This document shows, piece after piece, positions 19,691 to 22,089 of a stretch of DNA of 33,346 nucleotides. The stretch covers positions 1 to 33,346 of the forward strand of contig JAGWOC010000032.1 in NCBI GenBank assembly GCA_028872875.1. Reading direction: 5' to 3'. Position 1 is the stretch's first letter. Every line of letters starts with the position of its first letter. The DNA is from Chloroflexota bacterium (lineage in GTDB: Bacteria; Chloroflexota; Dehalococcoidia; DSTF01; JACRBR01). Both the position numbers and the translations under genes were made by a program. The notes beneath the pieces are model-generated. The model saw only the letters and a program-made list of their open reading frames with translations, made no database searches and had not been told where the DNA came from.

Positions 19691-20341
19691 TCAGAACCCG
19701 ATGCTGCGGAACGAGGATGCGAACGACCTCATGATCTCGGCACCGTTGTCAAACACGAAGGGCCCCGGCGCCCAGACATGGCTGCTGGTGACGAGTAGCC
19801 CCAGCACGATCGCCCAGACCGCGAAGCCCGCTCCGGTCGCGGCCAGCGCCTGGCCAGCGGGCGCGTCCGTCGCGGTCTGCACGGCGATAGTGGTCAGGGC
19901 GAAGAGCACCGCCAGCGAGGTCATGCCGATGCCGTAGTCGATGCCCGGGATGAACATCAGCACGCTCAATGCCAGCGGCAGCATCGCGAAGCCCATCACC
20001 CGGCTCAGCTCGTTCACGTCGGCGCGCGCGCGGAACACCTGCGTGAGCATGACGTAGGTGATGGCGATCCAGACGCCCCAGAGCAGGAGGGCGAAGATGC
20101 TTCCCAGGATTACCGACTGAAAGAAGAGCTTGCCGCTTCCGCCGACGCCGGCGACCGACCACCAGAGCCAGCCGCCGATGGCGGCGAGCACCACCGAGGC
20201 GGCGGCGATGACGATCGCCGGCACGGTCGCGGCGGTATCGGTGCGGACTTCGTCGAAGACGCTGGTATCGAGCATGGCGAGGCGGCGGATGCGCTGCATC
20301 AGGGCGTTGACGTCCATGCCACCAGTCTGTGACATCGTCAT
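19691..20341 (-). CDS. Yip1-family membrane protein
   Basis: The 216-residue protein has a hydrophilic N-terminus (about 1-40) and about five hydrophobic helices arranged as in Yip1 (PF04893) bacterial members, with a Leu-rich FFQSVILGSIFALLLWGVW segment and LSRVMGFAMLPLALSVL. Such proteins are of unclear function in bacteria. ATG 20341 is chosen because AAGGAGGG lies eight bases upstream; the open frame extends further without similarity. It lies between rsmG and the MFS gene on the same strand, 139 bases after rsmG. Confidence 0.75.
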   Translation of the reverse strand: MTMSQTGGMDVNALMQRIRRLAMLDTSVFDEVRTDTAATVPAIVIAAASVVLAAIGGWLWWSVAGVGGSGKLFFQSVILGSIFALLLWGVWIAITYVMLTQVFRARADVNELSRVMGFAMLPLALSVLMFIPGIDYGIGMTSLAVLFALTTIAVQTATDAPAGQALAATGAGFAVWAIVLGLLVTSSHVWAPGPFVFDNGAEIMRSFASSFRSIGF

Positions 20342-20480
20342 GGCGGATCCCTCCTTGTATGGCCCGCTCGCGGGGCGGGCACCGGCCGATAACGGTTCAT
20401 TGGCATATCTCATACAGCAAATTTCGCAGGCTGTCTAGTGCCGATTCTCGGTGGTGCGCATGACATTGACATAACATCGG

Positions 20481-21197
20481 TCACAACGGGCGCTTGTTCG
20501 GGACGCCGGCGCGCCGTGGGTACACGTCGGGTGTCTGGCGCAGCTTGATGGCGACGACAACCTGCTGCCGCGGCCCGGGCACGTCGAGCGGGAACGTCAC
20601 ACAGCGCGCCCCGAGGACATCGAGCGCGTGTCGCGATGCCGCGACCTCGTCCTGCGTCCGCGACCCTTTGACCGTCGCCAGCCGGCCGCCGATCCGCGCG
20701 AAGGGCAGCGCCAGCTCGAGCAACACGGGGAGTGGCGCGACGGCGCGCGCGACGACGAGGTCGAAGGCGCCACGGAGCGTCGCGTCGCGCGCGAGCTCCT
20801 CGGCCCGGCCGGTGAGGACGCGCACGCCGCCCAGCCCGAGATCCTCGACCAGCGCCGCGAGGAACGCGGTTTTCTTCGCCGTGGCTTCGAGCAGCGTGAG
20901 CCGGAGCGCCGGCCAGGCGACCTTCAGCACCACGCCGGGCAAGCCCGCGCCGCTGCCGATGTCGATCAGCGTGCTGTCCGGGCGGAGGATCTCGCGCTCG
21001 CGCAGCGCGGCGCCGAAGGCGAGCGATTCCAGGAAGTGGCGCCGCTCGACGGCGGCGTCGCTGGCGTCGGCGACGAGGCCCGCGCGGTGCGACCATGCGC
21101 GCAGCAGGGCCGCATATCGCTCAAACTGCGCGGCCTGTGCGTCATCGAGCGTCACGCCGTGGTCGCGCGCGCCGCGGCGAAGATTGGAGAGGGCCAT
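20481..21197 (-). CDS. rsmG: 16S rRNA (guanine527-N7)-methyltransferase
   Basis: The 238-residue protein is RsmG (GidB), which makes m7G527 in 16S rRNA. Family motifs are ERYAALLRAWSHRAGLV near the start, the SAM-binding LIDIGSGAGLPGVVLK, LLEATAKKTAFL, and the VVARAVAPLPVLLELALP stretch. It lacks neighbouring mnmG. ATG 21197 follows a TACGAT -10 box by eight bases without a Shine-Dalgarno; the longer open frame up to 21302 overlaps the divergent greA and is not used. Confidence 0.95.
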   Translation of the reverse strand: MALSNLRRGARDHGVTLDDAQAAQFERYAALLRAWSHRAGLVADASDAAVERRHFLESLAFGAALREREILRPDSTLIDIGSGAGLPGVVLKVAWPALRLTLLEATAKKTAFLAALVEDLGLGGVRVLTGRAEELARDATLRGAFDLVVARAVAPLPVLLELALPFARIGGRLATVKGSRTQDEVAASRHALDVLGARCVTFPLDVPGPRQQVVVAIKLRQTPDVYPRRAGVPNKRPL

Positions 21198-21218: not shown

Positions 21219-21247
21219 TTGACGCGGGTGGGGAGCGTCCGTACAAT
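21219..21247 (+). promoter_or_regulatory. Sigma-70 promoter for greA
   Basis: TTGACG at 21219-21224 and TACAAT at 21242-21247 are separated by exactly 17 bases. This is the best full promoter in the window. The AUG at 21274 and its GGAGGG ribosome site lie downstream of the expected start point. Confidence 0.75.
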
Positions 21248-21273
21248 CGAAGGGAAGGGCAGGAGGGTATTCT

Positions 21274-22089
21274 ATGGCCGGAGACGCGACGACCGAGCAC
21301 ACGACGCTGGACGAAATCGCGCACGCGTATCTCGCGTCGCTGAAGCAGACCCAGCGTCAGGTGGCGCAGCCAGAGGTGCTCAAGTTCGTCCGCTGGTCTG
21401 GCCCGGAGCGCAACCTCGCCACAATGCGAGGCCACGAGATCGCCCAGTACGCCGACAACTTTCCCCCGACCGTCTCTGACGCGGCCAAACGCGCGGATTC
21501 CGTCCGCGCGTTCTTGAAGTGGGCGAAGGAGAAGGGCATCACCGAGACCAACCTGGGCACACATCTCCGCGTGCGCAAGGCGAACAAGCCGAGCACGACG
21601 GCGGAGACGCTGGAAACCCAGCCGATCTACCTGACGCGCGAGGGGCACGAGAACCTGGTGCGGGAGATGGAGGAGCTGAAGCAGCGGCGTCCGATCATCC
21701 AGGCGGACCTCGCGCGGGCGATGGCCGACAAGGACTTCCGCGAGAACGCCCCGCTCGACGCCGCGCGCAACGAGCAGGGCCACCTGGAAGCGCGCATTCG
21801 CGAGCTCGACGCGACGCTGCGCCGCGCCGTCGTGCTCGAGAACGGTGTGGACGATCCGGGTGACATCGCGCGCATCGGCACGCAGGTGACGGTACGGGAC
21901 CTGCGGAACGGGCAGGAAAAGGCGTACATGCTCGTCAACTCCGACGAGGTGCGCTCGGGCCAGGGCAAAGTGTCCATCGCGTCGCCGCTGGGCCGCGCCG
22001 TCTACCAGCACCGGGCTGGCGAAGAGGTGGAGGTCGAGGCGCCCGCCGGCACCTTCCGCGTCCGCATCGAGGCGATCAAGGCGAACTGA
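21274..22089 (+). CDS. greA: GreA-type elongation factor with N-terminal integrase-like core-binding domain
   Basis: The 271-residue protein is about 110 residues longer than a standard GreA. Residues 117-271 form the Gre module: a coiled coil with the tip DFRENA (Asp154 and Glu157 correspond to the catalytic acids that promote RNA cleavage in backtracked polymerase), then the FKBP-like domain. The usual AEYHAA after the tip reads APLDAA. Residues 11-100 look like the SAM-like core-binding domain of tyrosine recombinases: a helix with YLASLKQTQRQV, KFVRW, then DAAKRADSVRAFLKWAKEKGI. A Thr/Lys linker (101-116) joins them. There is no recombinase catalytic domain. A strong promoter and a GGAGGG ribosome site precede the ATG. 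The fusion frame is continuous with no sign of error. Confidence 0.88.
   Translation: MAGDATTEHTTLDEIAHAYLASLKQTQRQVAQPEVLKFVRWSGPERNLATMRGHEIAQYADNFPPTVSDAAKRADSVRAFLKWAKEKGITETNLGTHLRVRKANKPSTTAETLETQPIYLTREGHENLVREMEELKQRRPIIQADLARAMADKDFRENAPLDAARNEQGHLEARIRELDATLRRAVVLENGVDDPGDIARIGTQVTVRDLRNGQEKAYMLVNSDEVRSGQGKVSIASPLGRAVYQHRAGEEVEVEAPAGTFRVRIEAIKAN

Follow-up and report, generated by a model that had tools for sequence, protein, structure and literature searches.

Gre factors are usually viewed as small, two-domain, freely diffusing proteins. The locus at positions 21274-22089 of the window (the whole stretch of DNA that was analysed, 33,346 nucleotides) raises the question of what an additional domain at the N-terminus of such a factor is, and what it may contribute to the rescue of stalled transcription. 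In the initial annotation, the gene was read as GreA fused to the core-binding domain of a tyrosine recombinase, possibly tethered to DNA through this domain. The features on which this evaluation is based are as follows (coordinates are those of the window).

19691-20413, minus strand: gene of a conserved hydrophobic (membrane-like) protein beyond rsmG
20481-21197, minus strand: rsmG (16S rRNA G527 methyltransferase), divergent neighbour (PF02527, E 1.4e-38)
21219-21247, plus strand: sigma-70-type promoter TTGACG-17-TACAAT, between the divergent rsmG and the fusion gene
21261-21267, plus strand: Shine-Dalgarno-like AGGAGGG, 6 bases 5' of the fusion gene ATG, read from the sequence
21274-22089, plus strand: core-binding-domain/GreA fusion gene, an open reading frame of 271 aa with full-length relatives across Dehalococcoidia
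21304-21585, plus strand: tyrosine-recombinase core-binding (SAM-like) domain, residues 11-104, assigned by profiles, AlphaFold2 and fold searches
21586-21624, plus strand: flexible, mostly basic linker, residues 105-117 (pLDDT under 50 at 105-112)
21625-21834, plus strand: Gre coiled coil (GreA_GreB_N), residues 118-187 (PF03449, E 8.9e-19; AlphaFold2 model)
21733-21744, plus strand: coiled-coil tip with the catalytic acids Asp154 and Glu157 (E. coli D41 and E44), placed by alignment
21859-22080, plus strand: Gre C-terminal RNA-polymerase-binding domain, residues 196-269 (PF01272, E 1e-19; Foldseek matches to GreA, GreB and Gfh1)

Domain composition of the fusion protein

The C-terminal part of the protein was recognised by both Pfam families of Gre factors, PF03449 and PF01272, with 67.9 and 70.7 bits against gathering cut-offs of 24.5 and 26.9, respectively. 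These matches cover residues 118-269, in agreement with the initial reading of residues 117-271 as a complete GreA with both tip acids, and Asp154 and Glu157 are retained in all 135 of the 135 fused Gre sequences. The NCBIfam cut-offs for greA were missed (131.6 against 145 bits for NF001263, and 114.5 against 139 bits for TIGR01462), and the fusion protein is a member of the Gre family rather than a strict GreA by the NCBIfam rule. The fusion shares with E. coli GreA (1grj) the coiled coil, the tip acids and the C-terminal domain (fold match TM 0.9), while relative to GreA and GreB it is extended at the N-terminus by a domain of about 104 residues, followed by a linker; additionally, the fused Gre domains constitute a separate, deeply split group of the Gre tree.

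Residues 11-100 had been proposed to represent the SAM-like N-terminal domain of phage integrases. In the AlphaFold2 model of the fusion, predicted from an alignment of 56 sequences (with a pLDDT of 89 for the whole chain and of about 95-98 for most of residues 11-100), this N-domain comprises five helices (12-22, 25-42, 53-60, 70-86 and 94-97); predicted alone, it was modelled with lower confidence (pLDDT 78). Single-sequence scans of Pfam, NCBIfam and PHROGs gave no significant match for the N-domain of the window protein, and a PF02899 search of the window's genome returned five matches elsewhere, the fusion gene not being among them. The lack of a single-sequence match in Pfam or NCBIfam, and the fact that helical domains in general match loosely, would be consistent with a chance similarity of small helical bundles to integrases. 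However, a profile built from 97 fused sequences was aligned by hhalign to a profile of 25 Xer/integrase core-binding domains from Dehalococcoidia genomes with a probability of 96.3 (E 1.7e-9, 83-84 columns), as compared with values of at most 1.8 for 30 column shuffles and 0.1 for the reversed profile. Furthermore, an hmmsearch of PDB sequences with the N-domain profile detected 3nrw, a phage-integrase N-terminal domain (E 8.2e-5), and Phage_int_SAM_4 was the commonest extra Pfam family when the relatives were scanned one by one (9 of 56, best E 0.002). Thus, the HMM search suggested at the outset gave no Pfam match to the window protein itself, while the profile-profile and PDB-profile comparisons did give matches.

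The fold-search lists were headed by recombinases only. With the model of the N-domain alone, Foldseek placed tyrosine-recombinase core-binding domains (3nrw, lambda Int, XerD and Tn1549 among them) at all of ranks 1-16; 3nrw was matched at TM 0.76, and the E-values are weak (0.02 and above), so that the ranking is the informative part of this result. Similarly, ranks 1-26 of a VIA-align search were all occupied by recombinase-fold proteins, with Z values of 12.8 for 3nrw, 11.4 for lambda Int and 10.5 for XerD, while MrpR/YopR and SroF appeared lower in the list. The predicted N-domain therefore has the fold of the core-binding domains of lambda Int (1z19), XerD (1a0p) and 3nrw in addition to sequence homology to them, as the structure prediction and fold search proposed with the initial annotation were meant to evaluate. 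Chance similarity is regarded as refuted, its residual probability being minimal, and homology of the N-domain to the core-binding domains of tyrosine recombinases is considered established from sequence profiles and predicted structure. In contrast to the recombinases themselves, the fusion is joined to a polymerase factor and has no catalytic domain: neither the RKHRH pentad nor the Tyr nucleophile was found in the open reading frame, the remainder of which is GreA, as had been noted originally.

Distribution, descent and genomic setting

Of 40 close genomes, most encode a full-length relative of the fusion protein, with identities of 32-100%. Among Dehalococcoidia genomes that are at least 90% complete, the N-domain profile was matched in 274 of 294 (profile matches that were not individually inspected, a few of which could be other core-binding domains) and the Gre domain in 288 of 294; the survey of Chloroflexota GreA proteins that had been recommended thus identified a class-wide layout. 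In a sample of the phylum, the full-length layout occurred in some other Chloroflexota classes and was absent from many. Outside the phylum, coverage consisted of one scan of genome contigs for close relatives, in which the 76 loci among the matches listed all belonged to Chloroflexota. No Gre factor with this layout was found in the literature searched, which was covered in part, and to this extent the initial impression of an undescribed arrangement holds.

In a tree of 119 Gre domains, the fused copies form one group, separated by a split with SH-aLRT 93, into which three unfused sequences intrude, namely the long-branched GreA proteins of G534 and G542 and a Gre factor of G374 that lacks the N-domain. 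Since the fused copies come close to a single tree group, a single origin of the fusion is apparently the simplest reading, and the fusion is an old, class-wide family. Codon comparison with four relatives placed dN/dS between 0.12 and 0.31 in the N-domain and between 0.09 and 0.26 in the Gre part, indicating that both are under purifying selection. The loss of the N-domain in a few lineages that kept the Gre part could be taken to mean that this domain is a functionless relic of a gene-fusion accident; its presence in the great majority of near-complete Dehalococcoidia and in several other classes, and a dN/dS range similar to that of the Gre part, render this explanation very improbable.

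Within 1.3 kb, one promoter-like site was found as opposed to 0.1 expected. This is the TTGACG-17-TACAAT promoter of the initial annotation, and its hexamers are kept at the equivalent place in the related loci L033, L034, L035 and L036. The head-to-head pair of rsmG and the fusion gene, together with the gene of the conserved hydrophobic protein, recurs in about 25 related loci, in 24 of which the hydrophobic protein gene adjoins this pair; no Pfam family was matched by the hydrophobic protein encoded at 19691-20413. Other sub-groups of the fusion have different, ordinary housekeeping neighbours, of which rsmG is the commonest, and none of the conserved neighbours in the related loci compared indicates a functional partner. 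The role in repair or collision resolution raised in the initial annotation is conjectural. A housekeeping role, as suspected from the promoter in the first place, is supported.

That the present-day fusion gene might be of phage or mobile-element origin was also considered and was rejected on account of its housekeeping neighbours, its vertical spread and the lack of any relative among viral contigs. An integrase gene lies 3-7 kb from the fusion in G034 and G035 and is not a general neighbour. Unlike tyrosine recombinases, the fusion is vertically conserved and as a rule located away from mobile-element genes.

In its N-domain, the open reading frame homologous to greA of Dehalococcoides mccartyi reads ...LDEALNQYLNDNSNKK... 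GreA of D. mccartyi CBDB1 (cbdbA743) is present in the proteome and acetylated at K17 (PMC7918482). In the Dehalococcoides-like open reading frames (L135, L137 and L139), residue 17 is Lys if counted from an internal ATG (MTASGYKKLEDELSTLK) and Asn if counted from the full-length start. K17 therefore fits the internal-ATG numbering, and the public D. mccartyi gene model probably starts inside the open reading frame and omits the N-domain. A convincing Shine-Dalgarno sequence precedes neither the full-length nor the internal start of these open reading frames, and a genuine internal start may be used in vivo in Dehalococcoides.

Loss of the catalytic tip in stand-alone GreA

The genome from which the window derives also encodes a stand-alone GreA of 157 aa, located outside the window (G000:C213:54888-55340; L031/L134). 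The tip of this protein reads KELASTQNNAEYEDAK as opposed to REHGDLKENAEYHAAR in E. coli, Ser and Asn being found in place of D41 and E44, respectively. In E. coli, the double substitution D41A E44Y impairs GreA in the rescue of arrested complexes (PMC7527559). A stand-alone Gre without one or both tip acids was observed in 44 of the 47 Dehalococcoidia genomes that carry both a fusion and a stand-alone copy, with S/N, G/N and G/D as the usual replaced pairs; G024 and G380 are exceptions, as perhaps is G473, the tip of which has a one-residue deletion. Conversely, the acidic pair is kept in 24 of 25 sampled genomes of other Chloroflexota classes in which no fusion was detected. Comparison of tip loss between the fusion-bearing Dehalococcoidia and these genomes without a detected fusion gives a Fisher p of about 1e-14, which is not valid as a statement about independent events since the counts share descent among neighbouring lineages. 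In four genomes of other classes that do possess the fusion, the stand-alone copy keeps D/D, and the decay of the tip is thus mainly a feature of Dehalococcoidia. The new observation is that the tip acids are kept in all fused copies while stand-alone GreA has mostly lost them.

In the 11 surveyed f17 (Dehalococcoidaceae-like) genomes, which are 1.4-2.1 Mb in size and mostly single contigs, there is no Gre factor other than the fused protein. Dehalococcoidia without a fusion often possess another acid-bearing Gre. G374 and G486 encode a fused-type Gre that lacks the N-domain (L268:1609-2157 and L273, respectively), which in G374 is replaced by a short, Lys-rich N-terminal tail; G534 and G542 carry an acid-bearing GreA of foreign look, and other acid-bearing Gre proteins occur in G023, G366, G382, G427 and G021. 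Only a dead-tip copy was found in G004, G360, G414, G416 and G446, the assemblies of which are possibly incomplete. The invariance of the acids in the fused copies, the loss of the tips in the stand-alone copies and the status of the fusion as sole Gre in the f17 genomes together suggest, at the level of sequence, that the fused protein looks like the transcript-cleavage factor of Dehalococcoidia.

Two Gre paralogues per cell, as in the genomes carrying the fusion, are also known from Thermus, where GreA cleaves and Gfh1, a Gre homologue that inhibits RNA polymerase, does not (PMC4598747). The two cases differ in that Gfh1 keeps its tip acids while the non-cleaving candidate of Dehalococcoidia, the stand-alone GreA, has lost them, and in that the presumed active copy of Dehalococcoidia carries a new domain.

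Further Gre-like sequences were encountered in the course of this comparison. Two additional adjacent Gre-like open reading frames of G024 (L271, G024:C99:17500-20500) are strongly degenerate, with no recognisable tip. Short open reading frames of G212 and G556 (L275 and L276) combine a Cys-rich, zinc-ribbon-like N-terminus (CPGCGEV...GWC) with a Gre-type coiled coil, the tip of which is intact (SAREDGDLKENS); a Gre C-terminal domain is not visible in either.

A candidate role for the N-domain

The N-terminus of GreA is located at the base of its globular domain. As the globular domain of Gre remains outside the channel (PMC7527559), the N-domain should hang outside the polymerase, where the flexible, basic linker, some 15-20 residues long, would hold it. 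The Gre part would enter the secondary channel of RNA polymerase, and D154 and E157 would restart the backtracked enzyme, as may be expected from homology and strict conservation.

Helices B and D are on the DNA-facing side in Cre, Xer and lambda Int. The conserved basic positions of the fused N-domain are situated on helices B and D and on the tail that follows: in the main branch, to which 102 of the 129 fused members belong, Lys or Arg is kept at positions 28 (61%), 37 (87%), 40 (66%), 73 (93%), 78 (100%), 85 (77%), 99 (98%) and 102 (96%). The N-domain of the window protein carries a net charge of only +2, rising to +5 if the tail is included; across the family, the median is 0. The remaining 27 of the 129 members, to the extent that they were sampled in the tree, fall into one clade (SH-aLRT 97), with N-domain net charges of -4 to -17. 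In this acidic clade, R40, R73, K85 and K102 are lost, position 40 being mostly Asp or Glu, and positions 46 and 78 are retained, as is the fold core (F38, G43, Y59, F80, L81 and L94). A basic surface thus looks to be present in most members and to have been given up in one clade. The acidic-clade loci include L051, L053, L058, L070, L074, L076, L077, L079, L081, L084, L086, L089, L093 and L095, among others; many have a GGARGG-type linker, and many have heme o synthase and CcmC-like genes downstream.

The DNA tether of the initial annotation consequently remains plausible for the main branch, where Arg or Lys is found at 37, 73, 78, 99 and 102, and cannot hold for the whole family, since the acidic clade has lost most of its basic residues. 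Moreover, this clade and the loss of the N-domain in a few lineages indicate that the domain is accessory, and its absence from lineages that keep the Gre part implies that it is not needed for cleavage. A domain that retains its fold core while losing its basic surface, and the overall charge of which is near zero, could instead have given up DNA binding and act as an adaptor between proteins, with RNA polymerase itself or a partner protein, for example a repair helicase, as its docking site. A generic adaptor would have no need of the strongly conserved Lys and Arg at the positions concerned in the 102 main-branch members, and no conserved neighbour gene points to a partner; this explanation is considered rather unlikely.

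Alternatively, the N-domain may bind RNA, either the extruded 3' end of the backtracked transcript or nascent RNA, and in this manner sense the complexes that require cleavage. The domain is expected at the mouth of the channel, where backtracked RNA exits, the same conserved basic residues and the basic linker would serve this purpose, and in G374 it is a Lys-rich tail that replaces the domain. Against this, the fold family is known for binding duplex DNA and the fold searches returned no RNA-binding relative, so that RNA binding as the function of the domain is judged improbable, though a serious competitor of the DNA tether. Taken together, the function inferred with most support for the main branch, including the window protein, is binding of either DNA or RNA; this does not extend to the family as a whole.

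As regards duplex DNA, core-binding domains bind the recombination site in recombinases (PMC8138268), and MrpR is a DNA-binding regulator of recombinase fold that has no recombinase function (PMC10516654). The phage proteins MrpR/YopR and SroF resemble the fusion in that a recombinase fold is re-used for DNA binding (predicted in the case of the fusion), in MrpR without recombination; they differ from it in having about 320 residues and an overall recombinase fold, while the fusion carries the core-binding domain only, attached to a host Gre factor.

The preferred reading, in which the N-domain acts as a DNA tether, may be outlined as follows. Several Chloroflexota classes would have inherited the fusion from an ancestor in which, apparently on a single occasion, a core-binding domain without its catalytic partner was added in front of a Gre factor. 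Positioned outside the polymerase, this domain would most likely hold duplex DNA beside the stalled complex without strong sequence specificity, with helices B and D and the basic tail as its contact surface, and would thereby raise the local concentration or the residence time of the factor. In step with this, stand-alone GreA would have lost its cleavage acids and at most still bind the channel without cleaving, or its gene would have been lost. The proposal in its entirety, i.e. that the fusion is the cleavage factor of the class, that the N-domain tethers it to DNA and that stand-alone GreA has lost cleavage, is slightly favoured. The corresponding evolutionary scenario, whereby the class moved cleavage from free GreA to a version bearing a recombinase domain, so that rescue became coupled to DNA while the old GreA decayed to a non-cleaving factor, is put forward tentatively, at a little less than an even chance.

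The interest of this locus lies in the breadth of the fusion and in the coupled loss of the tip in ordinary GreA. A highly conserved bacterial elongation factor has gained the domain of a site-specific recombinase and has seemingly displaced classic GreA throughout a class that probably includes the dechlorinating Dehalococcoides, where, as the K17 numbering of D. mccartyi GreA illustrates, annotation may miss the extra N-domain. If the N-domain binds DNA, cleavage rescue in these bacteria would be tethered to the template, which would represent a new way of directing a secondary-channel factor.
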